In this document: piece by piece, positions 12,635 through 41,175 of the stretch | Layout: the number at the start of each line of letters is the position of its first letter | Numbering within the stretch: the stretch's first letter is position 1 | Notes under the pieces: generated by a model | Seen by the model: only the letters and a program-made list of their open reading frames with translations | Told to the model about the DNA's origin: nothing | Databases searched by the model: none | Translations under genes and position numbers: made by a program | Source: Alphaproteobacteria bacterium | GTDB lineage: Bacteria > Pseudomonadota > Alphaproteobacteria > UBA2966 | Reading direction: 5' to 3' | Assembly (NCBI GenBank): GCA_018650465.1 | Contig: JABIFY010000090.1 | Location: 1-64,000, forward strand | Length of the DNA: 64,000 bases

Positions 12635-12801
12635 ATATTTCGACCAAACAGGATATTTAGCGAACAACATCAAGACCAGCGGCATTCGGGCCAGGACATA
12701 TTACCTCTGCCAGTCGCGCATCAATAAATTTTCAAATTTTCCGATCAGTCGTGAGCAAGCCTGAACGCTGTTGTATTCATTGCGTAAAAGGAGAGACCAG
12801 T

Positions 12802-15341: not shown

Positions 15342-15346
15342 ATTTG

Positions 15347-19455: not shown

Positions 19456-19553
19456 CTGTTTCTTCCTAGAATTTCAGGGTCGATAAAACGATACCCGCAA
19501 GAACGCCTGCGATCAATCTCTTGCAGATTTTGAACGGGCAGTGTTGGATAGCC

Positions 19554-19577
19554 CAAGATATTCACGCAAGATATTCA
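19554..19577. repeat. Tandem 11-bp direct repeat in divergent YrdC promoter
   Basis: CAAGATATTCA occurs twice (19554-19564 and 19567-19577), two bases apart, in the 146-bp region between the divergent YrdC-like genes, 25 bases before the ATG at 19602. The perfect copy and position suggest a regulator-binding site. Confidence 0.5.
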
Positions 19578-19601
19578 TATTGGCGAAAGGCTTTTTCAGG
19601 C

Positions 19602-20318
19602 ATGTCGAAACCAGATGTAGCGGGTGACGCCCAAAAGGCTTTTGACGTCATGAAAAAAGGCGGCATCGCCGTGATGCCCATGGATGTGGGCTATTCAGCC
19701 ATCGGCGGGTCCATGGCGGCCCTGAAAAAGATTTTCGATACCAAGCAACGCACGCCGTCCAAGCTGAATGCCATGCTGGGGGATATGAAGTTGCATCACG
19801 AGCTTCATGACCTGGATCAGCGCGGGCAGGAAATCGTCCAAGCCCTGGTCGAAGATTATGACCTGCCCCTGGGCGCAATTGCACCGGCCCACATGGATCA
19901 CCCGATTATCCGGAACATGGAACCAGAAGCGTTAGCGCGCAGCAGCAAGACCGGCACAATCTTGATGCTGTTGAATGCCGGGTCTTTTCACGCTGAAATA
20001 TGCAGATTGAGCCGTGAGGCGTCTTTGCCCCTGTTTGGCTCATCCGCCAATGTTTCGCTTTCTGGCACCAAGTTTGTGGTCAGCGATATTGAACCTGAAA
20101 TAATTGATATCGCCGATATCGTCATCGACCATGGCTTGAGAAAATATCACCTCTACGAAGCGTCATCGACCTTGCTTGATCTAATGACATTAGAGGTCGT
20201 GCGCTATGGCTCTTGCTTTGAGCTGATCGCCGATGTCCTGAAACGCCATTTCAGCATTGATCTGCCACCACCCCCACCGGGCCACATTCTCGACCTTGTA
20301 AAACACCGGCTGCCCTAA
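19602..20318 (+). CDS. YrdC/Sua5-like domain protein (paralogue B)
   Basis: A 238-residue paralogue of the protein encoded on the other strand at 18760-19455. Corresponding blocks are KKGGIAVMPMDVGYSAIGG, TKQRTPSKLNAMLGD, the GTILMLLNAGSFHAEICRLS segment, and LFGSSANVSLSGTKFVVSDI. The KP of the usual ATP-site motif reads SK here, so this copy is even further from canonical TsaC. It ends with a proline run (LPPPPPGH). ATG 19602 was chosen because the domain begins directly after it. It converges with the Ldh2-type gene. The pair could form a heterodimer or have diverged in substrate; function is not known. Confidence 0.7.
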   Translation: MSKPDVAGDAQKAFDVMKKGGIAVMPMDVGYSAIGGSMAALKKIFDTKQRTPSKLNAMLGDMKLHHELHDLDQRGQEIVQALVEDYDLPLGAIAPAHMDHPIIRNMEPEALARSSKTGTILMLLNAGSFHAEICRLSREASLPLFGSSANVSLSGTKFVVSDIEPEIIDIADIVIDHGLRKYHLYEASSTLLDLMTLEVVRYGSCFELIADVLKRHFSIDLPPPPPGHILDLVKHRLP

Positions 20319-25984: not shown

Positions 25985-26086
25985 CCGTCACCCCGCACTT
26001 GATGCGGGGTCTGCGCCTGTGTTGTAAGGCACGATGCATCCCAATTTGGCCACCGCATGGACCCCGCATCAAGTGCGGGGTGACGG
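25985..26086. repeat. Dispersed palindromic intergenic repeat (copy 2, paired)
   Basis: Two perfect 27-bp inverted arms (25985-26011 and 26060-26086), each itself nearly palindromic (CCGCACTTGATGCGG core), flank a 48-base spacer. The element lies between the ends of convergent genes (methyltransferase and iolB). It could fold into a cruciform or act as a bidirectional transcription stop. Confidence 0.8.
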
Positions 26087-26130: not shown

Positions 26131-26940
26131 TCAATCCTGTTTCTGCGCAATCCAGTCGTGGTCGGGGTCGTTCTTGAAATGCCATTCACGTAAAGGTCCG
26201 GCCATGACGTTCAGGTAATAAAGGTCATAACCATGTGGTGTGCCGACCGGGTGATAGCCACGCGGTACCATGACCACATCGCCGTCTTCCACGGCCATGG
26301 TTTCATCCAGGCTGCGGTCGTCGGTGTAAACCCGCTGGAAGGCAAAACCCTGGGACGGGTTCAGGCGGTGATAATAGGTTTCCTCAAGGTTGGTTTCCTC
26401 AGGGGAATTATCTGTGTCATGTTTATGCGGCGGATAGCTGGACCAGTTACCGGCCGGGGTGACGACCTCAACCACCAGCAAACTGTCGGCGGGTTGGTCG
26501 TCTGGCAGGATGTTGCAGACATGACGCACATTTGTGCCCGTGCCGCGGGTCTCGCGGCTCATGTCGTCTGGCGCTATCAGGCGCACGGCGTGGTTGCCCT
26601 TGCCGGGTGCAGAACAGACGGCAAGCGTTAATTCCGATGTGGCTGTGACGCTGAAGTGACTGCTCGAGGGCACATAAACCGCATGCGGTGCCTGGCCATC
26701 AAACAAGGATGTGCGACCGCCAACACTATTAAAGCTTTCACCCCCGGCGTTGATGTCAGCGGAACCCAAAACTGTGACCAGACAAATCTCGCGGCTGTCT
26801 GTGTCGCGGGTAATGCTCATGCCGGGCCTCATTCGCAGAAGCTCAAACCCCACATGGGGCCAACCGGCAGATTCCGGGGTGATACATTGCACGGTGCCGT
26901 TGGCGTCGGGCTGTTGTGGTTTAACGAGCAGGCTGGTCAT
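26131..26940 (-). CDS. iolB: 5-deoxy-glucuronate isomerase
   Basis: A 269-residue cupin enzyme that isomerises 5-deoxy-glucuronate to 2-deoxy-5-keto-gluconate in myo-inositol breakdown. Family blocks include LLVKPQQPDANGTVQCITPE near the start, GGRTSLFDGQAPHAVYVPSSS, the metal-site WSSYPPHKHDTDN with two His, EETNLEETYYHRLNPSQGFA, and VVMVPRGYHPVGTPHGYDLYYLNVMAGP. ATG 26940 lies four bases after the iolC stop; a longer in-frame ORF overlaps iolC and is not coding there. It is the last gene of the rpiR-iolC-iolB unit. Confidence 0.94.
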   Translation of the reverse strand: MTSLLVKPQQPDANGTVQCITPESAGWPHVGFELLRMRPGMSITRDTDSREICLVTVLGSADINAGGESFNSVGGRTSLFDGQAPHAVYVPSSSHFSVTATSELTLAVCSAPGKGNHAVRLIAPDDMSRETRGTGTNVRHVCNILPDDQPADSLLVVEVVTPAGNWSSYPPHKHDTDNSPEETNLEETYYHRLNPSQGFAFQRVYTDDRSLDETMAVEDGDVVMVPRGYHPVGTPHGYDLYYLNVMAGPLREWHFKNDPDHDWIAQKQD

Positions 26941-26944
26941 AAAT

Positions 26945-28864
26945 TTACTCCTGAGCGGCGCTTGATGTGCGCGCATCGCGCCATGTTTGCAACAATTCAC
27001 GATAGTTCCGGGCGATGCGGGCAGTGGCTTCGGCATCGGTGATGTCTTTGGCAAACCAGTCTTCGGCAGCGCTGTAAAAGAGGCTGCGACCAACGGCAAA
27101 ACCTTTGCAGACGGGATAGGCAGCAGCAAGTTCAAAGCCCGCTCGCAATTCATCCATGGGTGCGTTCAGACCCAACATCAATACACCACGGCACCAGGGA
27201 TCGCGGGCCTCGATCAGGGCGCTGATCTTTTCCCAGGTTTCCGTGGCCCTTGGCGGTGATAATTTCCACCAGTCGGGCATAATCCCGGCGTCGTAAAATT
27301 CACCCATAGCTGTCAACAAGGCTTGTTCCGGGTCCATACCGTTCTGTGGCGGAATAACTTCCAGCAACATATCATGACCGGTCGTCAGGCAAGCTTCATA
27401 CAGGTTGGACACGGTCTGGATTTGCGCATCTTTCAGGGCTTGGTCGTCGTTGGGGTGGTAAGAGACCAGACACTTGGCCACATGGCTTTCGGGCCAGTCG
27501 TGCAAAGTCGCCGCGATATTTGGTCCACCTTCAAATTGCAGTGGACGGGAGCCGGGCAATTCAACCGGACGGGCCACCCACAATGTCCCGTCACTGGCCT
27601 GGGCCAGACTGTCGAAACCGTATTTGTCATCAATGATCACACCAAAGCCCGCAGAATTATCCGAGGCATTGCGGGCACCTTCGGCAATCAGGCGTTTGAA
27701 CTGGCTGATGTCTTCCGGGGAAGCGCTGTTTTTCTCAGCGATTTCTTCAAACTGGCCGCGATGGTCAAAGGCAATGGCACATACTTCGCGCCATTGTTTT
27801 TTGCGATTGGTGGTGCGGTGGATGTGCGAAAGTTTTTTGTCGTGGCGCAGGCGAATTTCTGAACTGCCTTCTTCCAGAAAGATCTGCAATTCCTGCCAAC
27901 TGGGAATGGCCGGTGCACAGCCGTGGCGTGATACAACGATGGCGCCACAGGCATTGCCAAACCGGCAGCAGGTTTCCCAATCTTCTCCAGCGACCCAGCC
28001 GCGCAGGAAGCCGGACATGAAACCGTCACCTGCGCCTAAGGTATTAAAGACCTCGATCTTGCGACCGGTTACGGTAATGCCTTTTTCCAGGTCATCAGGA
28101 ATGACGTCCGGGAAAACAACGCAACCCATGGGTCCGCGTTTTACAACAATGGCGGCTTGCGAAAGCGCCCGGATATTTTTGACGGCTTGCAAAGTATTTG
28201 TTGAACCGCCCGCAATATGAATTTCTTCTTCCGTGCCGACGATCAGGTCACAATCGGCCAGGATTGTTTGCACGTGCGCCGTCACATCGGCGGATTCAAC
28301 AAAGCGGCTTTCGCCATCGCCATGGGATGTCAGGCCCCAGGCAACGGGACGATAATCAATGTCGAGAACGACTTTGGTGCCGGCCTTTTTGGCTGCGGCC
28401 TGGGCCTTGCGGCTGGCCTCTTCGACGCCGGGTTGCGAAAAATGTGTGCCGGTCAGAACCAGGGCTTTGGCCGAGGCGATATAAGCCGGGTCAATATGCT
28501 CCCCGCTGAGCGCCATGTCGGCGCAGTTCTCGCGATAGAATATATGAGGTGAAGTTTGCAGATCGCGAATGCCCAGAATAACCAGGGCGCTCAAGCGTTC
28601 AGGGTCAGTTGTCACGTGGCTGATATCGACGCCTTCATCGATCAAGGTCTGGCGGATGAAGCTGCCCATTTGTTCGTCGCCGACGCGGGTAATCAAGGCG
28701 CTTTTCAGACCAAGACGGGAACAGCCGACAGAAATATTCGTGGCGCAACCACCAACATATTTGGCAAAGGACTGCATATCTTCCAGCCGTCCGCCGACCT
28801 GTTCGCCATAAAGATCAACGCTGGAGCGCCCCAGGCATATCACATCGAGAGTTCGGTCTTGCAT
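26945..28864 (-). CDS. iolC: Bifunctional 5-dehydro-2-deoxygluconokinase / DUF2090 aldolase-like protein
   Basis: A 639-residue fusion. The N-terminal PfkB kinase (about 1-320) starts LDVICLGRSSVDLYGEQVGG and has the PfkB end motif NTLGAGDGFMSGFLRGW with the catalytic Asp. It phosphorylates 2-deoxy-5-keto-gluconate. The C-terminal DUF2090 domain (about 335-630, from REVCAIAFDHRGQFEEIAEK) is the TIM-barrel type usually annotated as 5-dehydro-2-deoxyphosphogluconate aldolase, the next pathway step (IolJ function). The fusion is common in proteobacteria. It lies between the RpiR regulator gene and iolB. iolD, iolE and iolG are not in this window. Confidence 0.93.
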   Translation of the reverse strand: MQDRTLDVICLGRSSVDLYGEQVGGRLEDMQSFAKYVGGCATNISVGCSRLGLKSALITRVGDEQMGSFIRQTLIDEGVDISHVTTDPERLSALVILGIRDLQTSPHIFYRENCADMALSGEHIDPAYIASAKALVLTGTHFSQPGVEEASRKAQAAAKKAGTKVVLDIDYRPVAWGLTSHGDGESRFVESADVTAHVQTILADCDLIVGTEEEIHIAGGSTNTLQAVKNIRALSQAAIVVKRGPMGCVVFPDVIPDDLEKGITVTGRKIEVFNTLGAGDGFMSGFLRGWVAGEDWETCCRFGNACGAIVVSRHGCAPAIPSWQELQIFLEEGSSEIRLRHDKKLSHIHRTTNRKKQWREVCAIAFDHRGQFEEIAEKNSASPEDISQFKRLIAEGARNASDNSAGFGVIIDDKYGFDSLAQASDGTLWVARPVELPGSRPLQFEGGPNIAATLHDWPESHVAKCLVSYHPNDDQALKDAQIQTVSNLYEACLTTGHDMLLEVIPPQNGMDPEQALLTAMGEFYDAGIMPDWWKLSPPRATETWEKISALIEARDPWCRGVLMLGLNAPMDELRAGFELAAAYPVCKGFAVGRSLFYSAAEDWFAKDITDAEATARIARNYRELLQTWRDARTSSAAQE

Positions 28865-28915: not shown

Positions 28916-29749
28916 CTAGGTGAGTGATTTTTCGTTAAGAGATAGCGCTTGCCCCAGTCCAACAACAAGGGTCTGGGCAAGGCAAATGGGGGCAACAAGA
29001 GTGCGGAATGTCTGGTCCGAACCGTTCTTGATTTCGAAACTGACAGAACTGCGGGCGACCAGTGGACTTAAGGGGCTGTCGGTAATGGCAATCATCTTGC
29101 AGCCGGTATCGGACACTTCCGACATCAGGTCGACAACCGCGGGGGTATAGGGGGCAAAACTTATGGCAATGACCGCGTCATCAGGATCAACACGGGCGAT
29201 CTGGTGGCGCAACATGCCCCCGGCCCCGTCGGCCAGCAGACAGCGAATCTCCAGACGTGACAGGGCATAGTGAAGATATTGGGCAACGGCATAAGAGCGC
29301 CCTTGGGCCAGCAAATGAATATCGCGGGCGTCGCGCAAAATCTCGACAGCCTGGGTCAGTTTGGCGGGCGGTGTGTTGCGGCGTAATTGATCCAGCGCCT
29401 CTATGCCAGTGCCGGAAAATTCATCAAGGATTGAGGCGATACCTTCGCGGCCTTCTGATTGCAAATTTTGAATGCGGTCGCGATAGCTTGAGGTGTCCTT
29501 CATCAGGCGGGCGCGGAACAGACGCTGTAAATCGCTGAAGCCGTCAAATTCAAAGGCTTTGGCAAAACGCACGATTGTTGACGGCTGCACATCGGCCTTC
29601 TCGGCCACATAGGTCACGGTTTCCATGGCCACCGTGTCCGGGTGTTCCAGCGCAAAACGGCCAAATTTCTGTAGCTGGCCGGGCAAGTTGTCGTATTTGC
29701 CGGTAATGGCTGTCTGCAAATCATCATAGGTCGTCGGCGCACTGGTCAT
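28916..29749 (-). CDS. MurR/RpiR family transcriptional regulator (iol-linked)
   Basis: A 277-residue regulator with the RpiR HTH (about 40-75: YVAEKADVQPSTIVRFAKAF) and SIS domain (about 130-255: DIHLLAQGRSYAVAQYLHYA and VIAISFAPYTPAVVDLMSEV). It heads the unit with iolC and iolB; RpiR-type IolR proteins control inositol genes in several alphaproteobacteria. It is divergent from a branched-chain-type ABC importer. A perfect inverted repeat lies between them (29771-29800), so it probably controls itself, iolCB and the importer. The effector may be a phosphorylated inositol breakdown product. Confidence 0.88.
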   Translation of the reverse strand: MTSAPTTYDDLQTAITGKYDNLPGQLQKFGRFALEHPDTVAMETVTYVAEKADVQPSTIVRFAKAFEFDGFSDLQRLFRARLMKDTSSYRDRIQNLQSEGREGIASILDEFSGTGIEALDQLRRNTPPAKLTQAVEILRDARDIHLLAQGRSYAVAQYLHYALSRLEIRCLLADGAGGMLRHQIARVDPDDAVIAISFAPYTPAVVDLMSEVSDTGCKMIAITDSPLSPLVARSSVSFEIKNGSDQTFRTLVAPICLAQTLVVGLGQALSLNEKSLT

Positions 29750-29837: not shown

Positions 29838-29996
29838 ATTTTAACGTAATTAAATATGACTATATAGCTTGATTTTGAAAGATATGGCCGCGGCGCTCAA
29901 GCCGCAGCCGCCAAAACAAAAATAATAACAAGAAGACCACAAACCAAGACAACCGAATTAAGACGATCGAAGACTTGAACATAAATGGAGGTAAAT

Positions 29997-31274
29997 ATGT
30001 TTAGCCCTAAAACGAAGCTTTCTTTTTCCAAAATCACCGCAGGCGTCGCTCTGACAGCTGTTTGCACAGTTCTTTCCGCAACAGCCGCCACAGCTGCTGG
30101 CAAGCCGATTGTTATTGGCCTGACATCTGACGCCAGTGGCCAGTACGCCAACTCAGGTGCATCTGATCGCCGTGGCATGAAAATGGCCATCGCCGAATAC
30201 AACGCCAAGGGCGGTGTCCTTGGTCGTCAGATCAAAACTGTTCATATCGATACGGAAACAACCCCGGCCACTGGCTCACGTGTTGCAGAACGCATGATCA
30301 GCCGTGAAAAAGTTGGTTTCATGATCGGCGCTGTCAGCTCCGGTGTGGCCAACGCGATTTCGCAGGTTGCCCAGAAGTATGGCGTTGTTTACCTGAACAC
30401 CAACTCAAGCTCACCCACCGAATCAGGCAAGAACTGCCATCGCGTAAAGTTTGTCTGGGATGGTAATGGCAAGAACTTTGCCCTCGCCGCCGTCAAAAAC
30501 GCTGTAACCGCTTATGGTAAAGACTGGCTGCTGGTCACCAACGATTATGTCTGGGGTCACAACACGTCTAAAGCCACGCGCGGCCTGGCCGTTGCCAATG
30601 GTGCAAAAATTGTTGACGAAATCATGGTGCCACAGGGTACACGCGATTTCTCAACTGTTCTGCTGAAAGTCCAGCAAGCCAAACCATCCGTTGTTGCCGC
30701 CGCCGTTGGTGGTGATGATCAAAAAGCCATGCGCACCCAAATCGCTCAGCTTGGCCTTGGCGACAAGTTTGCATGGATCAACAACCAGCAGGACTGGCCT
30801 GATGTCTACGGCCTGCCCAAGAAAAACCTGTTCGGTGTCTTTGGCACAACCTGGTACTACAAGCTGGACCTGCCGGGCGTAAAAGAATTTGTTGCCAAAT
30901 ATCAGGCAGCTTATCCTGACACCAAAATGAAAGTTCCAGGCAACGTCTTCTACAATGGTTACATGGCCACCAAATCCTTGCTTCAGGCCATCGAAGCCGC
31001 AGGTACAACCAACAACCACGCTGTGATCAAGCAGTTGGAAAACCTGAAAGTGTCTGCCGCAGATCGCATGCAGCACCACGACGCCTGGATGAACCCAAAA
31101 ACGCATCAGATGCAACAGACCGTCTATCTCGCAACCAGCAACCCTGCTGATAGTGCCAAAGACGATATGTTCAAGATCATGTCACAGTCAGCACCTTCTG
31201 CTGTTGCCGACATGAACGCTGAAGCAACCTGTAAGCTCGAAGCTCTGGCCGATACACCACAGCGCGAGTCCTGA
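29997..31274 (+). CDS. Branched-chain/urea-type ABC transporter substrate-binding protein
   Basis: A 425-residue type I periplasmic binding protein of the LivK/AmiC-like family. The signal peptide (FSKITAGVALTAVCTVLSAT, then AATAA) is cleaved near residue 34, before GKPIVIGLTSDASGQYANSG. The family pattern continues with RRGMKMAIAEYNAKGGVLGR, AERMISREKVGFMIGAVSSG and VGGDDQKAMRTQIAQLGL. ATG 29997 has GGAGGT at ideal distance; the in-frame ATG at 29985 overlaps that site. It heads the importer operon. Although the family is named for amino acids, many members bind other small molecules, and the neighbouring genes suggest a sugar, polyol or derived acid. Confidence 0.9.
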   Translation: MFSPKTKLSFSKITAGVALTAVCTVLSATAATAAGKPIVIGLTSDASGQYANSGASDRRGMKMAIAEYNAKGGVLGRQIKTVHIDTETTPATGSRVAERMISREKVGFMIGAVSSGVANAISQVAQKYGVVYLNTNSSSPTESGKNCHRVKFVWDGNGKNFALAAVKNAVTAYGKDWLLVTNDYVWGHNTSKATRGLAVANGAKIVDEIMVPQGTRDFSTVLLKVQQAKPSVVAAAVGGDDQKAMRTQIAQLGLGDKFAWINNQQDWPDVYGLPKKNLFGVFGTTWYYKLDLPGVKEFVAKYQAAYPDTKMKVPGNVFYNGYMATKSLLQAIEAAGTTNNHAVIKQLENLKVSAADRMQHHDAWMNPKTHQMQQTVYLATSNPADSAKDDMFKIMSQSAPSAVADMNAEATCKLEALADTPQRES

Positions 31275-31474: not shown

Positions 31475-32404
31475 ATGGATATCATCCTTAATCTTTTGCC
31501 GCATTTGCTGAACGGCCTGGCCCTGGGCCTTCTGTTCGCCCTGATCGCCCTTGGCTTCATGCTGATTGTTGGTGTGATGGAGCTGATCAACCTGGCCCAC
31601 GGCTCGCTGTTTGCGCTGGGTGCCTATGTGGCCATGACCATCATTGACCCCAATCTTTCCGGCTACGGGGCTTTTGGTGAATGGTATATGGGCCTGTCGC
31701 TTACCCTAAGATATATTATTGCCCTGGCATTTGCGCCGGTCATTGTTGCCTTTGTTGGCATGGGCCTGGAAATCTGCATGCGCCGAACCTATGGCAAAAA
31801 AGCTGAATATGGTTTGCTGTTAACCTATGGTGCCGCCCTGGTGCTGGAAGAAACCATTCGTATCACCTGGGGCTCCGCCGAACAGGTTCTGCAAATCCCC
31901 GACGCCATCAGTGGGGCCTTTATCGCTGGTGGCATGATATATTCCAACTATCGTTTTTTTGCCGCTGGATTTGGCCTCGTGCTGATCCTGGTGGTCTGGC
32001 TCTTCCTCGAAAAAACACCTTACGGTTCCATCATCAAGGCCGGTGCCCATGACAGCGAAATGGTCCGGGCACTTGGCGTGAACCTGACCCGCTTGCGCCT
32101 GTTGGTCTTTGGCCTGGGCGCGGGTCTGTCGGCCATTGCGGGCGTGGTGCTGACACCGATCTGGGGCCTGCGTCCGCATGTGGGTGTGGACGTCGTGATC
32201 CCGGCATTCTTGATCATTGTCCTGGGTGGCATTGGTAGTTTCTGGGGTGCCGTCATTGGCGGTATTCTGGTCGGTCTGACCGTTGGCATCGTCGGGGCCC
32301 TCGCCCCTGAATGGTCGCTGATGTCCATGTACATTTTGCTGATCATTGTGATTACCTTCCGCACCCGTGGTTTGCTCGGTAAAAAAAGCGCGCTGGAGAA
32401 TTGA
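31475..32404 (+). CDS. Branched-chain-type ABC transporter permease (LivH family)
   Basis: A 309-residue inner-membrane protein with the LivH-type pattern: LNGLALGLLFALIALGFMLI, VGVMELINLAHGSLFALGAY, and late LTPIWGLRPHVGVDVVIPAF plus IIVLGGIGSFWGAVIGGILV. About eight TM segments. The ribosome-binding site is weak. One base separates its stop from the second permease's ATG. It forms half of the heterodimeric channel. Confidence 0.92.
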   Translation: MDIILNLLPHLLNGLALGLLFALIALGFMLIVGVMELINLAHGSLFALGAYVAMTIIDPNLSGYGAFGEWYMGLSLTLRYIIALAFAPVIVAFVGMGLEICMRRTYGKKAEYGLLLTYGAALVLEETIRITWGSAEQVLQIPDAISGAFIAGGMIYSNYRFFAAGFGLVLILVVWLFLEKTPYGSIIKAGAHDSEMVRALGVNLTRLRLLVFGLGAGLSAIAGVVLTPIWGLRPHVGVDVVIPAFLIIVLGGIGSFWGAVIGGILVGLTVGIVGALAPEWSLMSMYILLIIVITFRTRGLLGKKSALEN

Positions 32405-32405
32405 T

Positions 32406-33395
32406 ATGAGCACCTCCTTCGCCAAAAAAACGCCCTTCATCACCCGGCCCATGATCGTTTTGTTTCTGGCCCTGGGCACATTCCCTTTGTGGGGAACAAG
32501 TGTCGGTCTTTACGATTATCTGGGTGTGGAAATTGTCATCTGGATTATCTATGCCCTGGGCTTCAACCTGCTGCTGGGCTACACCGGCCTGCCGTCCTTT
32601 GGACATGGCGCGTTCTTCGGTGTTGGTGCCTATTCATATGGCCTGTTCCAGCTGAATGTTTTTGAAAGTGTTTGGCTGGCGGTGGCGGCAGGTGTTGTCG
32701 GCGGAGCCGTTGTTGCGGGCCTCGTGGCCTGTTTCATCTCCCATCGCCGGGGCATCTATTACGCTCTGATGACCATCGCCTTCGGGCAGGTTTGCTGGTT
32801 TGTTTCCATGAAATGGCACACCGTAACCGGTGGCGAGGATGGCTTGTTGAATGTCCATCGCGGCACGCTCAATTTGCTGGTGACGGACGCCAGTCTGAAA
32901 GACAACGCCGATCTCTTTTACTTTGCCTTTGCCGTCCTGGTAGCGGTTGTCTTGATCCTCTGGCGTCTGGTGCATTCGCCCTATGGCAAGGCCCTGCAGG
33001 CCATTCGTATGAACCAGATGCGGGCAGGCTTTGTCGGCTATAATGTCTGGCTGATCAAATGGTCGGTCTTCACTTTGTCCGGCGCCATTGCCGGTTTGGC
33101 AGGCGGTTTGTTCGCCATCGCGCAAGAATCAGCCTACCCCGATGTCATGAGCTTACATGCCTCTGGCTTTGTGGTGATGATGACCTTGATCGGCGGTGGA
33201 TTTGTTAGTTTCTGGGGGCCGGTTATCGGGGCAATCGTCTTCTTCGTCGCGCGTGATTTTCTGGGCTCGATCACCGAAACCTGGCTCTTGTGGTACGGCC
33301 TGATGTTCATGGGAGTGATTATCTTCAAACCGGAAGGTATCGCCGGTGCCTTCCAGGATTTTGTTGCCAAGCGCCGGGCAAGGGTGGAGAACTGA
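32406..33395 (+). CDS. Branched-chain-type ABC transporter permease (LivM family)
   Basis: A 329-residue LivM-type permease. The key block is IIYALGFNLLLGYTGLPSFG followed by HGAFFGVGAYSYGL. Later come KALQAIRMNQMRAGFVGYNV and SLHASGFVVMMTLIGGGFVSFWGPVIGA. The ATG lies one base after the LivH-type stop; longer in-frame starts overlap that gene. Together the two proteins make the membrane channel. Confidence 0.93.
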   Translation: MSTSFAKKTPFITRPMIVLFLALGTFPLWGTSVGLYDYLGVEIVIWIIYALGFNLLLGYTGLPSFGHGAFFGVGAYSYGLFQLNVFESVWLAVAAGVVGGAVVAGLVACFISHRRGIYYALMTIAFGQVCWFVSMKWHTVTGGEDGLLNVHRGTLNLLVTDASLKDNADLFYFAFAVLVAVVLILWRLVHSPYGKALQAIRMNQMRAGFVGYNVWLIKWSVFTLSGAIAGLAGGLFAIAQESAYPDVMSLHASGFVVMMTLIGGGFVSFWGPVIGAIVFFVARDFLGSITETWLLWYGLMFMGVIIFKPEGIAGAFQDFVAKRRARVEN

Positions 33396-33396
33396 C

Positions 33397-34140
33397 ATGG
33401 CTTTGTTCGAAGCGATCCATCTGCATAAACGTTTTGGCGACCAGGTCGTGCTGGAAGATATTTCCCTGACCTTTGAAGCGGGTCAGCTTAGCGGGATTAT
33501 GGGGCCAAACGGCGCGGGGAAATCCACATGCTTCAACGTTCTCACCGGCCACTACAAACCAAACGCTGGCAAGGTGATGTTTGAAGGCAAGGATATTACC
33601 GGTCTGCCACCGCGTGTGATCGCGGGCATGGGCATCGCCCGGTCCTTCCAGCTCATGAACTTGTTTGACGAGTTTACGGTGATCGAAAACATTCTGGTCG
33701 CCCTGCCGGAATCCGTTGCGAAAAGCTTTAACATCGGCCACGACATCATGGGTAATTCATCGGCCACGGATCGTGCCGCTGACGTTCTGGCCAAAGTCGG
33801 CCTGACCGGGCGGGAGCTGGAGCTGGCGGGTAACCTGCCTTACGGCGAACGGCGCGCCCTGGAAATCGGCGTGGCCCTGGCGTCCGAGCCACGCTTGTTG
33901 TTCCTGGACGAACCAACTCAAGGGCTGGGCGCTGACGGCACAGCACGCCTTGAGGAGTTGATTGGTGAGCTGAAAAAAACCTATTCCATCGTTATCATTG
34001 AACATGACATGAAGTTCCTGTTTGGTCTGGCCGACACCATTTCGGTGATCCATTGGGGCCAGGTCATTGCACAAGGGTCACCTGATCAGCTGCGCGACAA
34101 CGAATGGGTGCGCGCCTCAAAGATCGGAGACGCCGCATGA
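33397..34140 (+). CDS. ABC transporter ATP-binding protein (LivG family)
   Basis: A 247-residue ABC ATPase with Walker A GPNGAGKST, the LivG-type signature LPYGERRALEIGVAL (a usual variant of LSGGQ in this subfamily), Walker B LLFLDEPTQGL and the switch histidine in IIEHDMKFLFGL. The ATG follows the LivM-type stop by one base. Its TGA overlaps the next ATPase start by four bases. Confidence 0.93.
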   Translation: MALFEAIHLHKRFGDQVVLEDISLTFEAGQLSGIMGPNGAGKSTCFNVLTGHYKPNAGKVMFEGKDITGLPPRVIAGMGIARSFQLMNLFDEFTVIENILVALPESVAKSFNIGHDIMGNSSATDRAADVLAKVGLTGRELELAGNLPYGERRALEIGVALASEPRLLFLDEPTQGLGADGTARLEELIGELKKTYSIVIIEHDMKFLFGLADTISVIHWGQVIAQGSPDQLRDNEWVRASKIGDAA

Positions 34141-34835
34141 TGCTCGACATTCAGAATATCGAAACCTGGTATGGTGAAACCCAAGCCTTGTTTGGTGCGT
34201 CGCTAAATATTGCAGAAGGCGAAGTGGTTGCCTTGTTGGGACCCAATGGTGCGGGCAAGACCACAACTTTACGCTCGATCCTGGGTCTCTCGCCTGCCCG
34301 CAGGGGTACAATCGCTTTTGATGGCAAGGATATTACCAGTACGGCCACGCATGTGATTGCCAATGCCGGTGTGGGTTGGGTGCCGGATGACCGGCGCATC
34401 TTTCCCACCCTGAAGGTCAAAACCAATCTGGCCCTGGGCAAGAAAAAAACCCGCTTCCGGTCCTGGTCGGAAAGTGAGATGTTTGAAATTTTTTCCGCCC
34501 TGGAATATCTCATGGACCGGGATTGTGAAAATCTTTCCGGCGGTGAGATGCAAATGGTGGCGATCAGCCGCGCATTGTTGGGCTCACCTGGCCTGGTGTT
34601 GTTTGACGAACCCTCTCAAGGCCTCGCCCCCAAGGTCGTGCAAGACGTCATGAAAACCATTACCCGCCTTAAAAACGAAGGGATTTCGGTGCTGGTCGTC
34701 GAACAAAATGCCATGAGCGCCCTGGAAGTTTGCGACCGGGTCTATGTTATGGATCATGGCCGCATCGTCCACGAAGGCGGGGCGGCACAACTTCTTGAAG
34801 ACGAAGCCCTGCGCAAGCAGTTGTTGGGGATTTAG
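34137..34835 (+). CDS. ABC transporter ATP-binding protein (LivF family)
   Basis: A 232-residue ABC ATPase with Walker A GPNGAGKTT, canonical signature NLSGGEMQMVAISRAL, Walker B LVLFDEPSQGL and switch histidine position taken by Q in VVEQNAMSAL, as is normal for LivF. It pairs with the LivG-type protein as the energising heterodimer. Another ATPase-like gene follows after two bases. Confidence 0.93.
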   Translation: MMLDIQNIETWYGETQALFGASLNIAEGEVVALLGPNGAGKTTTLRSILGLSPARRGTIAFDGKDITSTATHVIANAGVGWVPDDRRIFPTLKVKTNLALGKKKTRFRSWSESEMFEIFSALEYLMDRDCENLSGGEMQMVAISRALLGSPGLVLFDEPSQGLAPKVVQDVMKTITRLKNEGISVLVVEQNAMSALEVCDRVYVMDHGRIVHEGGAAQLLEDEALRKQLLGI

Positions 34836-34837
34836 CC

Positions 34838-35467
34838 ATGACGACACCCACGCAGGCACCCATGCTTGAAGTCAAAGGTCTGAAGAAAATCTACCAGCGC
34901 GGCTTCATCAAGCGCCAGGAAACCTTCCGCCTGGAAGCCGACTTCACCATCGACAAGCCTCAGGTTGTGGGTGTCATGGGGCCAAATGGCTCCGGCAAGA
35001 CAACCATGTTTGAACTGATCACCGGCAGCAACCAGCCCACAGCGGGCGAAGTTCTGTGTGCCGGGCAAAACATTCATAATGTGAAATACCGCCAGCGCGA
35101 CCGCCTGGCGATCCATTATCACCAATCCTATCAGGTGCGCCATTTCAGCAAAACCAAACCGTCATTTCTGATGGAAAATCCGGTCTCGGATTATCCCATG
35201 ATCCATCTGTTTGACGAGCCGCAGTTCAACACGCAAGACGGCTATATCGGCTTTATGCTGGAATTTTTCAAGAAGTTGCGGGCCGAAGGTCGCCTGGTCT
35301 TTCTGTGCGTGCATCCGAACGAGCCTTTTCACACCAAAATCATGCGCGAAGCCTGCGATCAATATATCTTTGTGCAAAAAGGTTCCGTGTCACGGGCAGG
35401 GACCTATGATGAATTGCTTGAGGTCGACGGCGTGCGGGATTATCTCGGCGCGTTGGCTGCATACTGA
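34838..35467 (+). CDS. Atypical ABC ATPase without signature motif
   Basis: A 209-residue third ATPase-like protein of the importer operon. It has Walker A G48-PNGSGKT55, a Q-loop glutamine at 96, Walker B with D126-E127 (MIHLFDEPQ) and a switch histidine H159 (FLCVHPNEP). Only about 30 residues separate Q96 from D126, where standard ABC domains have some 70-80, and no LSGGQ-like motif is present: the helical subdomain is largely missing. It could bind and hydrolyse ATP slowly or act as a regulatory partner, but cannot form a normal dimer site with its own signature. The intact reading frame and the two-base gap to livF argue against a pseudogene. Confidence 0.8.
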   Translation: MTTPTQAPMLEVKGLKKIYQRGFIKRQETFRLEADFTIDKPQVVGVMGPNGSGKTTMFELITGSNQPTAGEVLCAGQNIHNVKYRQRDRLAIHYHQSYQVRHFSKTKPSFLMENPVSDYPMIHLFDEPQFNTQDGYIGFMLEFFKKLRAEGRLVFLCVHPNEPFHTKIMREACDQYIFVQKGSVSRAGTYDELLEVDGVRDYLGALAAY

Positions 35468-35484: not shown

Positions 35485-36228
35485 ATGCAAAGCCTTGAAG
35501 GGAAAATTGCTTTGGTAACCGGCGCCGCCGGGGTGCTGGGCGGCGCCGTGACACGGGGCTTTGTTGCCAAGGGCGTCAAAGTAGCCATGGTTGATTTGGA
35601 CACAGACCGGCTGGATGCTTTATCTGACGACCTGGGCGACGGCGTCATGTCTGTGCCCATGGACGTCAGCTCAGATGATGCCATCACGCAAGGCCTGGCC
35701 GATATTCAGCTGGCCTGGGGTGATCCTGATATTCTGGTCAACAATGCCGGTATTCTAACCAACAATAAATCCGCAGAAACAAGCATTGATGAATGGCGCA
35801 AGGTGATGTCGGTGAACCTGGACGGGGCCTTTTACCTGGCTCGTCGCTGCCTGCCCGCCATGAAAGAAAAAGCCTGGGGCCGGGTCATCAACATCTGTTC
35901 GTTGGCCGCCAAAACCGGTGGCCTGACGGCGGGGACCGCCTACACCACTTCCAAGGGCGGCATGTCGGCTTTAACTTTTTCTCTGGCTCGCGAAGTGGCG
36001 GGCGATGGCGTGACCGTTAATGGCATTGCGCCGGCCTATATCAAAACACCCATGGTGATGGAGCAACTGACTGAAGAGCAACGTCAGAAGCTGCTGAAAG
36101 ATATTCCTGTCGGTCGCTTTTGCGAGGCGGAAGAAGTGTCTCATGTGGTTGAATTCCTGGCCTCACCCTTATCCGGTTTCATTACTGGCGAAGTCGTCGA
36201 TATCAACGGCGGCCTGCATCTCGATTAA
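35485..36228 (+). CDS. Short-chain dehydrogenase/reductase (first)
   Basis: A 247-residue classical SDR. The cofactor motif VTGAAGVLGG is at 11-20, with acidic D38 after beta2 (MVDLDTDRLD) favouring NAD(H). NNAGILTN and the catalytic Y153-x-x-x-K157 (YTTSKGG) are present, with the serine in the ICSLAAKTGG segment. It begins 17 bases after the atypical ATPase gene, in the importer operon. It probably oxidises a hydroxyl group of the imported compound to a ketone or the reverse. A second SDR follows after eight bases. Confidence 0.9.
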   Translation: MQSLEGKIALVTGAAGVLGGAVTRGFVAKGVKVAMVDLDTDRLDALSDDLGDGVMSVPMDVSSDDAITQGLADIQLAWGDPDILVNNAGILTNNKSAETSIDEWRKVMSVNLDGAFYLARRCLPAMKEKAWGRVINICSLAAKTGGLTAGTAYTTSKGGMSALTFSLAREVAGDGVTVNGIAPAYIKTPMVMEQLTEEQRQKLLKDIPVGRFCEAEEVSHVVEFLASPLSGFITGEVVDINGGLHLD

Positions 36229-36236
36229 CAAAGGTT

Positions 36237-37058
36237 ATGCACGTGACTGATCAAATTACCCCCAAGATCGATTTCAAAACTGAACTCACCGGCTTGTTTG
36301 ATTTAACGGGCCAGGTGGCCTATGTGCCCGGCGGTTATGGCGGCATCGGGGAATGTATTGCCTGGGGCCTCGCGGTCGCAGGTGCAAAGGTTGTTGTCTC
36401 AGGCCGCAGTGCCGACAAGGCGGACAAGCTGGCAGCTGAACTACAAACCGCCGGTTATGAAGCCACAGGCCTTGCCGTTGATGTGCAATCCGTTGATCAG
36501 ATCCACGCCTCTGTTGATGCGGTTGTCGAAAAATACGGGAAAATTGATATCTTGATGAACTGCGTCGGCATCCAGCGTGAACAGCCTTTGCTGGAAGTGA
36601 CGGAAGAAGCCTATGACGAAGTTTATGAAGTTAACCTGAAGGCTTCCATGTTTCTGGCCCAAGCCGCTGGCAAACACCAGGTGGCTGCGGGCAATGGTGG
36701 CAAACAAGTGCATTTGCTGTCCGTGCGCTCGCAATTGGGTCTGCGCGGCAGGGGCTATTCAGCTTATTGCTCGACCAAGGGCGGTCAGGTGATGATGATC
36801 AAACAACACGCCATGGAACTGGCCCCGCACGGTATCACGGTAAATGGTGTGGCGCCGACTTTTGTCTTTACGGAAATGATCCGCCACGTGATGGAAAATG
36901 ACGAATTTCGCCAGGGCCTGCTGGACCGCATTCCCCTTGGTCGCATCGCCGACCCCAAGGACATCACCGGCCCCGCTTTGTTCTTTTGCGCACCTGCGTC
37001 TGGTTTTGTCACCGGTCAAACCATGTATGTCGACGGCGGCATTACCGCCAGCCAATAA
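36237..37058 (+). CDS. Short-chain dehydrogenase/reductase (second)
   Basis: A 273-residue classical SDR with an unusual cofactor motif start (YVPGGYGGIGECIAW, P in place of the common T), then VVVSGRSADK, where R at the beta2 end may favour NADP(H). NCVGIQREQPLLEV replaces the common NNAG. Catalytic Y177-x-x-x-K181 is in YCSTKGG. A 20-residue N-terminal extension (VTDQITPKIDFKTELTGLFD) precedes the fold. Same-strand position eight bases after the first SDR suggests consecutive redox steps, such as epimerisation through a keto intermediate. Substrate unknown. Confidence 0.88.
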   Translation: MHVTDQITPKIDFKTELTGLFDLTGQVAYVPGGYGGIGECIAWGLAVAGAKVVVSGRSADKADKLAAELQTAGYEATGLAVDVQSVDQIHASVDAVVEKYGKIDILMNCVGIQREQPLLEVTEEAYDEVYEVNLKASMFLAQAAGKHQVAAGNGGKQVHLLSVRSQLGLRGRGYSAYCSTKGGQVMMIKQHAMELAPHGITVNGVAPTFVFTEMIRHVMENDEFRQGLLDRIPLGRIADPKDITGPALFFCAPASGFVTGQTMYVDGGITASQ

Positions 37059-37113: not shown

Positions 37114-37872
37114 ATGCAAACGGGGCTTGTCCTGGAAAACTATGTCACCAGATTTCTGTCCGGCTTGCGGGACCGCGGCAATATTGAAGAGATGTTCGAC
37201 CTGCTGCCGGACATCTATTTCTATATCAAGGATCGCAATTGCCGCTGGGTCATGTGCAATAACGCCTGTCTGCGACTGCTGAATTTTCGCGACCAGTCAG
37301 AAGTTTATGGCGCCACCGAAGCGGACTTTTATCCACCCAGTATTGCCGAGATGATTTACCAGGATGACCGCGACGTCATCGACAATAACCGGCGCATTAT
37401 TAACCGCACGGAATTGATCATTGCTGAAACCGGGCATCTGACCTGGGTTTCAACCAACAAACTGCCGCTGGTTGGAAATGACGGTCTGGTCGCGGGGCTG
37501 ATGGGCACCACTCGAATACTCAGTCGCTCAGACCAATTACCCGAAGACTATCAGCCCTTTCGGGCAGTCATTGATCACATTCAGGCAAATGTGGCAGATA
37601 AAATCGATGTGACGGAACTGGCGAAAATCGCCTGCCTGTCCGACAGCCATTTCAGGAAACGTTTCCGGGCACAGTTTCGCTTGTCTCCTCAGGAATTTAT
37701 TTTGCGCACCCGCCTGCAGGCCGCTTCCAAGATGTTGATTTCAACAGACAGTCCGTTGATTACAGTGGCTCTTGCTTGTGGCTTCAGTGACCAGAGCTAT
37801 TTCACTCGCCAGTTCGGCAAGTTTTTTGAACAATCGCCGAAACGCTACCGCGCGACCTGGGGGCAGAAGTAA
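37114..37872 (+). CDS. PAS domain-containing AraC family transcriptional regulator
   Basis: A 252-residue protein with an N-terminal PAS fold (about 20-135: LLPDIYFYIKDRNCRWVMCN, then EADFYPPSIAEMIYQDDR) and a C-terminal AraC double HTH (about 150-250: ANVADKIDVTELAKIACLSD and FSDQSYFTRQFGKFFEQSPK). This architecture links a small-molecule or redox sensor to DNA binding. It lies 55 bases after the second SDR gene and is a likely local activator of the cluster. The sensed ligand is not evident. Confidence 0.88.
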   Translation: MQTGLVLENYVTRFLSGLRDRGNIEEMFDLLPDIYFYIKDRNCRWVMCNNACLRLLNFRDQSEVYGATEADFYPPSIAEMIYQDDRDVIDNNRRIINRTELIIAETGHLTWVSTNKLPLVGNDGLVAGLMGTTRILSRSDQLPEDYQPFRAVIDHIQANVADKIDVTELAKIACLSDSHFRKRFRAQFRLSPQEFILRTRLQAASKMLISTDSPLITVALACGFSDQSYFTRQFGKFFEQSPKRYRATWGQK

Positions 37873-37947
37873 GGTGAAGTTTTTGTAGCTCCAAATCATG
37901 TGCCTCCAGGGACGTGTGAAAATCAGGAAAGCGATTACCAACAAACA

Positions 37948-38046
37948 CTCCGTCATCCCGCACCTGATGCGGGATCCATGCCTTTGTCTGAAGGGTTCCC
38001 TGTAAATCAGATGCGTAGACCCCGCATCAAGTGCGGGCTGACGGAG
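37948..38046. repeat. Dispersed palindromic intergenic repeat (copy 3, paired)
   Basis: Two related near-palindromic units (37948-37976, with a CCCGCACCTGATGCGGG core, and 38018-38046, with CCCGCATCAAGTGCGGG) face each other across a 41-base spacer. The arms match imperfectly. It lies between the AraC-type gene and the alpha/beta hydrolase gene and matches copies at 17358 and 25985. Confidence 0.78.
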
Positions 38047-38176
38047 AGAGTTAACTATTAGCCAGCTAAATCACCTTAATCAGCGAATAGTTATAAAACT
38101 CCCGCGACTCGCAAAAGCCACGCCTGATATTTGGCGATAGTCTTGAACTTCAAATCAGCTATTGCCGGAGGATTTT

Positions 38177-39001
38177 GTGGCCAGTTTTGAACATAAGGGA
38201 TGCGTCGTTCATTACGATGTGCAGGGCGAAGGACCAGACCTGTTGTTCATGCACGGGCTCACGGCGGATCGTCGTCAGTCAATTGACGCCCTGGACCAAT
38301 TGAGCGGATATCGACTGATCACGGTCGATATGCCGGGCCATGGCGACACGAAATTACCTGCTGAACCGGGTGCTGGAAACACCCTTGAAGATATTGTGAG
38401 TTTTGCAGCCTTTGGCGAACTTGCGGCAGCACTTCTGGATCACCTGGGCGTAAAAAAAGCCATTGCAGGTGGCATATCCATGGGATCAGGTATTGCCCTG
38501 CGCCTGGCTGCTGATCGCCCTGATCTGGTTTCAGCATTGTTGCTGGTGCGTCCGGCCTGGCTGGACCGGCCTGGGCGTCCGCATCTTGGCGTCATCGAAG
38601 ACATCGGTAACTGGATCGCCGAACTGGGCGCGGATGGTGCCGCCAAGCGATTGCTTACACACCCACTTCATGTGGCAGCATCGTCAGACAACCCTTCCTG
38701 TGCGGCCTCATTGGAGGGCGCCACGGCACGTCCCCAGGCCGTTGAGGCGGCGAAGGTGCTGCCGATCATGGTTGCGGATCAGCCTTTCGCCCGCATCGGG
38801 GAATTACAAAATCTGGCGATCCCGGCACTTGTTATCGGTAACAATGCTGACCCCCTGCATCCTGCCATGATTGCCCGCGAGATCAGCGGCGCACTGGCAA
38901 ATTCAGATTACTTTCATGCCCCACCAAAATATCTTGAACCCGATGCCCACAAGGCCGCGGTCAGTCAACGCATTGCAGAATTTCTGGAGGCTAACCGCTA
39001 A
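38177..39001 (+). CDS. Alpha/beta hydrolase
   Basis: A 274-residue serine hydrolase of the alpha/beta fold. The oxyanion HG motif is in LLFMHGLTADRR, the nucleophile elbow in AIAGGISMGSGIALRLA, and the probable acid and His in VIGNNADPLHPAM and EPDAHKAAV. GTG 38177 has GGAGG five bases upstream; TTG 38162 is possible. It precedes the TIM-barrel/Tm-1 pair by 45 bases. It may open a lactone or ester produced by the dehydrogenases; this is inference. Confidence 0.85.
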   Translation: MASFEHKGCVVHYDVQGEGPDLLFMHGLTADRRQSIDALDQLSGYRLITVDMPGHGDTKLPAEPGAGNTLEDIVSFAAFGELAAALLDHLGVKKAIAGGISMGSGIALRLAADRPDLVSALLLVRPAWLDRPGRPHLGVIEDIGNWIAELGADGAAKRLLTHPLHVAASSDNPSCAASLEGATARPQAVEAAKVLPIMVADQPFARIGELQNLAIPALVIGNNADPLHPAMIAREISGALANSDYFHAPPKYLEPDAHKAAVSQRIAEFLEANR

Positions 39002-39046
39002 TCGGCTTTCACTTCCATCCTCAATATAAATCAGGAGAAAATCATC

Positions 39047-39907
39047 ATGATTACCAAACGCATCTCAACCAAACAAATCCTCGCCAACCTGAAAGCCAAG
39101 GTCGACAACCACGAGCCCATCATGATCGCCAGTGCGGGCAGTGGCCTGGTGGCCAAATTGCTGGAGCGCTCCGGCACGGATTGCATCAATACATTTTCCG
39201 GCGCGCGTTTGCGGGCCAACGGCATGGGCACCATGTCCATGATGTGGCCGATCCTGGACAGCAACAAACAAACGATGACCTATACCCGTGAAGACATCAT
39301 GCCCGCCCTGGAAGGCAAAGCCTTTGTCTGCGCCTGCCTGAATGCGAACGATCCCCTGAAAGACATGCGCATGGTTTTGCAGGATTGTAAGGACATGGGT
39401 GTAAACTCGGTATCCAATATTGGCCCGTCCATTTCCTATGTGGACAAGGACAGTGAAATCTTTAACGTTCTGACCAGTACCGGCGTCACCTTGCAAAACG
39501 AAATTGACATGCTGAAGCTGGCCCGTGAAGAAATGGATATGGTTTCCATCGGTCTCGCCTTTACCAAAGAAGACAGCCTGGCCATCGTCGAAGGTGCCCG
39601 CCCGCATATCTTCTGCTATCACGCTGGCACGACCAAAGGTGGCCTGACAGGTTATGACAATGGCTCCACCATTGAAGAAACTGCGGCTGAATCAGAAGAC
39701 GTCTACGCCGCCGTTCGCAAGATCGACCCGAACGTGATTTTGGTCGGTCACGGGGCCGCCATGGAAACACCGGAAGATGCCCAATACATGTTGGACAACA
39801 CCTCCGGTCATGGTTTCTGGACTGGCTCATCAACCGAACGTATTCCGATCGAACGCGCCGTTACTGCCGCTGCCGATGAATTCACAGCTTTGAAGTTCTC
39901 AAAATAA
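39047..39907 (+). CDS. PEP hydrolase-family TIM-barrel protein
   Basis: A 286-residue protein of the PF09370-type TIM-barrel family (named phosphoenolpyruvate hydrolase family). It starts with RISTKQILANLKAKVDNHEP and continues MIASAGSGLVAKLLERSGTD, VCACLNANDPLKDM, NIGPSISYVDKDSEIF, then IFCYHAGTTKGGLTGYDN and LVGHGAAMETPEDAQYML, which look like phosphate- and active-site loops. Members are almost always encoded beside Tm-1-like ATP-binding proteins, as here (31 bases). In tomato the two domains are fused in the antiviral Tm-1 protein. The reaction is not established. Confidence 0.86.
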   Translation: MITKRISTKQILANLKAKVDNHEPIMIASAGSGLVAKLLERSGTDCINTFSGARLRANGMGTMSMMWPILDSNKQTMTYTREDIMPALEGKAFVCACLNANDPLKDMRMVLQDCKDMGVNSVSNIGPSISYVDKDSEIFNVLTSTGVTLQNEIDMLKLAREEMDMVSIGLAFTKEDSLAIVEGARPHIFCYHAGTTKGGLTGYDNGSTIEETAAESEDVYAAVRKIDPNVILVGHGAAMETPEDAQYMLDNTSGHGFWTGSSTERIPIERAVTAAADEFTALKFSK

Positions 39908-39938
39908 TCCCCATTCAAACTTGAACAGGAGACACGTC

Positions 39939-41168
39939 ATGTCAAAAACAATCGCCATCTTGGCGACCCTGGATACCAAGGGCGCGGAATGTACTTATCT
40001 GCGGGACGAGATCAACCGTATGGGCGGCAAGGCTATGTTGATCGACATTGGCGTTGTCGGAGATGCAGACGTGCCCGCTGATATCAGCAATGCTGATGTG
40101 GCGGCAAAGGGCGGTACGGAACTATCGATTCTCCGCGATAAACCGTCGCGGGAAACCGCATCAGAAGTCATGGTACGCGGTGCCACCGATACCATGTTGG
40201 GCCTGATCGCTGACGGTAAAGTGGACGGCATCATCAGCCTGGGCGGCACACAAGGCACCAACAATTGTTGCCAGGTCATGCAGGCCCTGCCTTACGGTTT
40301 TCCAAAAGTCATGTTGTCGACCATGGCGTCGGGCGATACCTCGGGTTATGTGGGGATCAAGGATATCACGATGATGTTCTCGGTCAGTGATATCCTCGGC
40401 TTGAACCCGTTCTTCCGGCGCATTTTGTCCAACGCCGCCGGGGCCGTTGTGGGTATGGCGGATGCTGCCATCAAGATCGAATTTGATGCCAGCAGGCCCG
40501 TTGTTGGCATCACCAATCTGGGTGTGCTGACGCAAGGCTCCATGCATGCCATCGAATTGCTGGCCGCGCGTGGCTATGAAGCCATTGTCTTTCATGCCGT
40601 GGGGGCCGGTGGCCGGGCCATGGAACAATTAATGAAAGAAGGCTTCATCACGGCTGTCTTTGATTATGCCCTGGGTGATATTACGGATGCCCTGTTTGGT
40701 GGTATTCGGGCGGCTGATGAAAATCGCCTGACCGTTGCAGGCAAGCTTGGTATTCCGCAAGTCGTGGTGCCTGGTGGTGTGGACCATATCGGCATCATGC
40801 TGGATACGCCCAATACGGTGCCAGACGAATATAAAGATCGTGCGCACAGCTTCCACAATCCGGTTATTTTTGTCCCCCGCACGACGGGTGCTGAACTGGT
40901 GCGTATGATGGAAGAAATCCGTGACCGTTTACAGGACGCCAAAACCAATACGGTTTTCATTCTGCCCACAAAAGGCCTCAGCAGCTATTCAGTTGCCGGC
41001 GGTGATCTCTATGATCTGGAAAGTGATATGGTTTTTCATCAGGCCGTTCGCGATCTGATACCCGATTTTATCCCCCTGATCGAAATTGAAGCAGGGGCAG
41101 AAGATCTGGCGTTTGTTGAACGCTGTATCGACGAGCTGGTTAATTTGATCGAAAACAACAAGGCGTAA
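39939..41168 (+). CDS. Tm-1-like ATP-binding domain protein (UPF0261)
   Basis: A 409-residue UPF0261 protein. It begins KTIAILATLDTKGAECTYLR, with later GIISLGGTQGTNNCCQVMQA, PKVMLSTMASGDTSGYVG, the MFSVSDILGLNPFFRRIL stretch and VIFHAVGAGGRAMEQL. The family shares the N-terminal ATP-binding domain of tomato Tm-1. It follows the TIM-barrel gene by 31 bases and precedes the bifunctional aldolase gene by seven, within a sugar-type catabolic cluster. This supports a metabolic role, possibly ATP-dependent processing of a small acid. The start has an AGGAG site. Confidence 0.88.
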   Translation: MSKTIAILATLDTKGAECTYLRDEINRMGGKAMLIDIGVVGDADVPADISNADVAAKGGTELSILRDKPSRETASEVMVRGATDTMLGLIADGKVDGIISLGGTQGTNNCCQVMQALPYGFPKVMLSTMASGDTSGYVGIKDITMMFSVSDILGLNPFFRRILSNAAGAVVGMADAAIKIEFDASRPVVGITNLGVLTQGSMHAIELLAARGYEAIVFHAVGAGGRAMEQLMKEGFITAVFDYALGDITDALFGGIRAADENRLTVAGKLGIPQVVVPGGVDHIGIMLDTPNTVPDEYKDRAHSFHNPVIFVPRTTGAELVRMMEEIRDRLQDAKTNTVFILPTKGLSSYSVAGGDLYDLESDMVFHQAVRDLIPDFIPLIEIEAGAEDLAFVERCIDELVNLIENNKA

Positions 41169-41175
41169 AAAGACG

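Follow-up and report, generated by a model that had tools for sequence, protein, structure and literature searches.

A third ATPase gene directly follows LivF in a LIV-type importer operon of the 64,000-nucleotide stretch of Alphaproteobacteria DNA that we analysed (the window). Its product, here called X, is a 209-residue ABC-type ATPase core that lacks the ABC signature and, by prediction, the helical subdomain. We propose, at a probability of roughly 0.48, that X is a dedicated sixth subunit of a clade of LIV-type importers, and that it binds ATP, takes its missing signature in trans from LivF or LivG and gates import. ABC importers are normally described with two nucleotide-binding domains (NBDs), and LIV-type transporters are usually taken for amino-acid carriers. 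X may represent a new mode of regulating nutrient uptake, and it marks a clade of LIV-type transporters that probably carry carbohydrates. A third ATPase that gives only the cis half-site would also be a natural test of the roles of the signature and the helical subdomain.

Genes of the transporter operon and its neighbours in the window, with the basis of each assignment or a remark
Feature	Position	Strand	Basis or remark
IolB, 5-deoxy-glucuronate isomerase	26131..27030	-	model scan; start not settled
IolC-DUF2090 (5-dehydro-2-deoxygluconokinase/aldolase), myo-inositol catabolism	26945..28864	-	model scan
RpiR-type regulator (HTH_6 + SIS)	28916..29749	-	divergent from transporter operon
Periplasmic substrate-binding protein (SBP), Peripla_BP_6	29985..31274	+	Pfam
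LivH-type permease	31475..32404	+	named by order and homology among loci, no family scan
LivM-type permease	32406..33395	+	start picked by eye from ORF; named by order and homology among loci, no family scan
LivG-type ATPase, intact	33397..34140	+	Pfam/NCBIfam, locus comparison
LivF-type ATPase, signature LSGGE intact, Q-loop VPDDRR	34140..34835	+	stop codon 2 nt before X
X, 209-aa ABC-type ATPase core without helical subdomain or signature	34838..35467	+	translation, Pfam, alignment, AlphaFold model
SDR1, short-chain dehydrogenase	35485..36228	+	cluster in at least 14 of 80 loci
SDR2, short-chain dehydrogenase	36237..37058	+	cluster in at least 48 of 80 loci

Translation of the X gene yielded a single stop, at its end. 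The protein carries Walker A (GPNGSGKTT, residues 48–56), Q96, the Walker B Asp and catalytic Glu (D126-E127) and H159, together with Y19, which we take to be the A-loop Tyr. In an alignment of the window protein with 80 homologues, K54, T55, Q96, D126, E127, H159, Y19 and D134 were invariant in all 81 sequences, and P49 and S52 of Walker A varied in a few. These results confirm the initial annotation, which had read the Walker A, Q-loop, Walker B and His residues from the window sequence. It had further described about 30 residues between Q96 and D126 and no LSGGQ, beside intact livG and livF, and this description also held. A motif script found a signature-like motif in none of the 81 X sequences and in all 79 LivF rows taken from these operons, and the neighbouring LivG and LivF retain their Walker A, Walker B and signature regions. 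The spacing from Q-loop to Walker B was 30 residues in X, compared with 73 in LivF and 86 in LivG. The script returned 30 for 75 of the 81 X sequences and picked an earlier DEP string in the other six, in which Q96 and D126 are still invariant alignment columns; spacing was measurable in 77 of 79 LivF rows and 78 of 79 LivG rows, the 79th LivG row (locus L031) being a LivF mis-assigned as LivG. An invariant block at residues 123–144 of X, where a D-loop is expected, is unlike LivF or LivG, and several invariant His and Tyr residues lie close to Q96.

Pfam places X in the ABC_tran family (PF00005; 50.4 bits versus a cutoff of 25) through a match limited to residues 34–95, which correspond to profile positions 4–64 of 137; its only other Pfam match was AAA_23, below cutoff. 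Among the best 25 of 143 matched NCBIfam models, X scored far below every curated cutoff. LptB ranked highest in this set (57.3 versus 240), the LivG model NF008449 gave 43.3 versus 362, and a LivF model was absent from it. An origin as a phage or defence protein was rejected, as only generic or weak matches appeared: PHROGs gave two generic matches to ABC transporters and a weak one to a terminase, and PADLOC a single match spanning 29 residues in the P-loop region. A plasmid-borne element was likewise rejected, since the plasmid collection contained nothing that matched at E 1e-20. X has no specific model in Pfam, NCBIfam (best 25 of 143), PHROGs or PADLOC, and a literature search on a third, extra or signature-less ATPase of such transporters returned no paper.

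AlphaFold2, run on the 81-row alignment, modelled X with a pLDDT of 90.3 and a pTM of 0.87. Residues 90–133 of the model contain no helix of four or more residues, where a helical subdomain would lie. Confidence by block was 75 at residues 91–100, 82 at 101–110, 95 at 111–120 and 72 at 131–140, after Walker B. The best VIA matches of the model were ordinary NBDs, led by 6cvl_D (Z 19.1, r.m.s.d. 2.7, 176 aligned residues) and 4mki_A (Z 19.0, r.m.s.d. 3.0, 180 aligned); the 50 matches listed span Z 19.1 to 17.6, and no PDB chain without a helical subdomain stood out among them. The model thus confidently predicts X to be an NBD core without the helical subdomain. It resembles the NBDs of PF00005, such as LptB, LivG/LivF and UrtD/UrtE, in its RecA-like core, A-loop Tyr, Walker A, Q-loop Gln, Walker B Asp, catalytic Glu, H-loop His and predicted fold, and it differs from them in lacking the signature and helical subdomain and in the unusual invariant block after Walker B.

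We searched one genome per species with short conserved peptides of the window X protein and obtained 204 stretches, of which 143 were confirmed as relatives at E 1e-3. Because these peptides served as queries, conservation within those stretches is partly built in. We kept and read the best 80 of the 143, and all 80-locus counts exclude the other 63. These 80 homologues are 60–85% identical to the window protein over nearly its full length and contain no internal stops; the lowest pairwise identity among the 81 sequences is 54%. Such conservation in 80 loci excludes chance. The loci are labelled alpha-, beta- and gammaproteobacteria, with additional metagenome-assembled genomes that bear the labels Desulfosarcina, Deltaproteobacteria and Candidatus Binatia; Polaromonas, Variovorax and Roseibium/Labrenzia are among the carriers. 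Profile scores indicate that X is a sharply separated family: in ten genomes, nine X genes scored 307–373 bits and the next ABC ATPase 56.4, and no intermediate homologues below the family appeared at E 1e-17 or better in sets of 248 and 18 genomes. Its distribution is patchy, since no full-length match (best E 6.8e-11) turned up in 60 genomes related to that of the window, which include one of its own genus. Median pairwise dN/dS was 0.14 for X (94 pairs), 0.14 for LivG (118 pairs) and 0.16 for LivF (514 pairs), calculated over non-independent pairs of equal length with 75–98.5% identity and dS < 1.5. By these sequence comparisons, X is under purifying selection.

The window holds the full LIV set of five genes in the order SBP, LivH, LivM, LivG, LivF, followed by X. 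The initial annotation had asked whether homologues always follow livF. LivF is the next gene 5′ of X in 79 of the 80 loci, and in the 80th (L100) the contig begins at X. Measured between the stop codon of LivF and the first X codon in the alignment, the spacing falls within −7 to +24 nt in 78 of 79 loci. At more than 80% coverage, LivG was recovered from 77 of 80 loci (not from L027, where it is split in two, L031 or L100). LivM was recovered from 76 of 80 (not from L021, L031, L054 or L100). X is therefore encoded in the importer operon across species. Loci of the Burkholderiales type keep LivM-LivG-LivF-X together and encode SBP and LivH on the other strand. One real exception to full operon linkage is L031, in which LivF and X alone are recognisable. 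There, X follows a LivF without its first 30 residues, and LivG, LivM, LivH and SBP are unrecognisable in the fetched flank. Two further loci are irregular. L047 is the only one of the 79 with a long LivF–X gap (471 nt); two of the three forward frames of L047:7527-8000 are broken by several stops, and the longest open run is about 60–80 codons. At L027:6556-7989, the LivG match and the LivF match are each divided between two frames, with the pieces overlapping, a pattern that frameshifts or assembly errors would leave.

Sequence matches indicate that X shares both presence and absence with one LivF subfamily. Among 289 genomes of the class, X occurs in six and window-type LivF (E 1e-75) in five, all within those six; the remaining one has its LivF truncated where the contig stops. 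A set of 248 genomes from one family contained X in ten and LivF (E 1e-66) in 12. The ten genomes with X are the ten whose LivF is 63–69% identical, and the other two, with a LivF of 50–53%, have no X. Another family showed the same pattern, with X in five of 18 genomes and LivF in the same five. X was found in five of 398 genomes of a phylum-wide sample, the window genome included. These samples overlap, such that some genomes appear in more than one. The closest X-less relatives that we saw are two loci (L157 and L158) in which LivF is 50–53% identical to that of the window, its Q-loop carries Glu and the fetched flank holds no X.

LivF proteins from X operons differ from their X-less relatives in a motif that we take, from its sequence, to be the Q-loop. 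All 79 rows from the window and 78 loci have VPDDRR there, as do all 17 LivFs of another genome set, giving 96 of 96, although the two sets may share species. For these counts, the 'LivF' row of L100, which is an X sequence, was dropped, and L027 is absent from the set. X-less LivFs have Glu at that position in 24 of 24 cases (22 controls plus L157 and L158), including one (L134) that reads VAEGRQ and escaped the script pattern. The change fits co-adaptation with X and also descent of the clade from a common ancestor; simple shared ancestry could explain the LivF residues that are specific to the clade, among them D83.

We searched for a partner of X by modelling, covariation and distance correlation. 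The initial annotation had suggested modelling X with LivF or LivG. In a tandem LivF–X chain from L023, with the intergenic stop read as Gly, the domains were each well modelled (pLDDT 88.7), and their relative placement was not confident (pTM 0.56); VIA matches of this model fell essentially on the LivF domain. With a short forced linker, no ATP and no positive control, the model counts as a weak negative. Mutual information with APC gave top z scores for X of 9.3 with LivF, 9.7 with LivG and 9.4 with LivM, and the maxima of five shuffles were 9.7–10.2, 7.2–10.6 and 8.0–10.2, respectively. The X–LivF score lay under all five shuffles, and those for LivG and LivM beat only three of five, at an effective sequence number (Neff) of about 30–35. 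The LivG set used here held one mis-assigned row, the LivF of L031, which was kept as LivG in both the X-less control and the covariation sets; L027 is missing from those sets. Across 54 loci, distance matrices of X correlated with those of every other subunit at 0.59–0.76, with partial correlations of 0.35 for LivH, 0.28 for LivF, 0.26 for LivM, 0.14 for LivG and −0.09 for SBP. These correlations were not decisive for naming a partner. The initial annotation had proposed a distinct regulatory or accessory ATPase: the accessory part is borne out by the position after LivF, co-occurrence, separate family and purifying selection, and the regulatory part is not, as no partner was established.

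How might such a protein act? X can be viewed as a putative half-cassette that keeps all the cis elements for ATP binding and hydrolysis and lacks the LSGGQ signature and, by prediction, the helical subdomain, the elements by which an NBD serves its partner and the permease. It would bind ATP and use its nucleotide face to dock on one of the transporter's own NBDs that bears a signature, most likely LivF and possibly LivG, which would supply the signature in trans. As such a pairing would be unable to drive transport alone, it would gate the LivG–LivF cycle, or reset it, according to nucleotide or substrate state. A bolder version is possible, if on balance doubtful, in which the ABC importers of these operons form a class of their own, each with three ATPase subunits: X and the signature of LivF or LivG would form an alternative composite ATP site that works as an on/off switch, and the LivF Q-loop Asp would be co-adapted to it. 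If this version is true, a regulatory principle for ABC transporters would have been made from an NBD fragment.

The main rival to this proposed gating subunit is a switch that acts by itself, comparable to OLD-type ABC ATPases, which work although their signature is degenerate. X would form its own ATP-dependent homodimer or a monomeric switch on a non-NBD target, perhaps the permeases, or else the RpiR regulator or an operon enzyme. We regard this as rather unlikely, somewhat less so than the readings below. The ATPase domain of OLD nucleases is ABC-type like X, and excerpts of one study describe a class 1 OLD of Thermus scotoductus that hydrolyses ATP despite the degenerate signature of its class (PMC7049728). 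That precedent, the divergence of the 123–144 block from LivF and LivG, the lack of a predicted LivF contact and the top partial distance correlation with the permease LivH all suit such a switch; the strict position after LivF and the special LivF subfamily point instead to the transporter ATPases. For the RpiR regulator as target, clustering placed an RpiR gene in 56 of 80 loci and tblastn in 65 of 80, with some flanks cut, and X is not always near one. The likeness to OLD proteins also has bounds, as these carry a dimerisation insert and a Toprim nuclease domain according to the same excerpts (PMC7049728), whereas X consists of an ATPase core alone and is encoded in a transporter operon, and Pfam gave no match to a Toprim nuclease domain in its 209 residues. 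Excerpts on MlaFB (PMC7367683) offer a different parallel, an extra cytoplasmic subunit that accompanies the ATPase of an ABC transporter; MlaB, however, is a STAS protein, and X is itself an ATPase core.

The complete cis catalytic set of X and its place in the operon are what one would see if it replaced LivG or LivF as an energising subunit in part of the transporter population. The helical subdomain of an NBD takes part in permease docking, and the X model is without one; LivG and LivF are moreover intact in the same operons, with the LivF signature kept throughout, which makes replacement improbable. A phosphotransferase or kinase acting on the imported compound or on nucleotides is a slightly poorer prospect still. 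Adenylate-kinase activity is reported, in the parts of the sources available, for the ABC exporter MsbA and for CFTR (PMC5192220, PMC4447984), and the invariant His and Tyr residues near Q96 and the SIS domain of the RpiR regulator could be read in the same direction. Against this, every canonical ABC cis residue tested is kept in X, and the window already has a kinase in IolC. We consider it highly improbable that X is a duplicated ATPase in decay. Two parts that an ordinary NBD has are indeed missing, but length and residues are constant in 81 sequences, internal stops are absent and dN/dS is low, which rules out a recent truncation or pseudogene; this outcome and a scattered genomic context, either of which would have spoken against the initial annotation, were looked for in the 80 loci and neither was found. 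Duplication of the adjacent LivF or LivG is not favoured, as other ABC ATPases encoded in the genome match the X profile no less well: the window LivG reaches 41.5 bits with it, and several elsewhere in that genome score higher, up to 48.3.

The neighbouring genes suggest what the importer with its proposed gating subunit may carry. In complete gene content and order, the operon matches a LIV/HAAT-type importer; it departs from that type in having X as a regular sixth gene, in the Glu-to-Asp change of the LivF Q-loop and in its carbohydrate-catabolism neighbours. Excerpts of one source (PMC9007349) describe nine bacteria in which IolC-DUF2090 fusions were important when the cells grew on myo-inositol. 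The fetched flanks of the 80 loci, some of which end at contig ends, hold IolC-like genes in 27 cases, aldonate-pathway genes (arabinonate dehydratase-like, aldehyde dehydrogenase and HpaI-type aldolase) in 30, both in one and neither in 24. The family scans covered part of the neighbours, and neighbour counts from gene clusters, such as those of SDR1 and SDR2, are lower bounds, because some gene calls in high-GC loci are shadow ORFs. A beta-hydroxyacid dehydrogenase is a neighbour in 29 of 80 loci, with 2-hydroxy-3-oxopropionate reductase as its best model, below cutoff; since the 3-hydroxyisobutyrate dehydrogenase that acts in valine breakdown belongs to the same family, this neighbour does not decide the substrate. 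Judged from the neighbours as a whole, the X-linked clade probably serves cyclitols and other carbohydrates. Since they point to these compounds over amino acids, the liv gene names may mislead on substrate.

Between positions 26000 and 44000 of the window, no Rfam element reached its gathering score. Downstream of the two short-chain dehydrogenases, positions 37114-43131 hold an uncharacterised catabolic unit with a PAS-AraC regulator, a hydrolase-like ORF, PEP_hydrolase (PF09370), UPF0261 and a bifunctional aldolase/short-chain dehydrogenase. Positions 12751-16363 presumably encode a second, sugar-type importer; by eye, it comprises a double ATPase like RbsA and a pair of permeases, and a putative SorC-like regulator comes next. 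At 18760-20318, two divergent look-alike ORFs resemble, by eye, YrdC/Sua5-type proteins.
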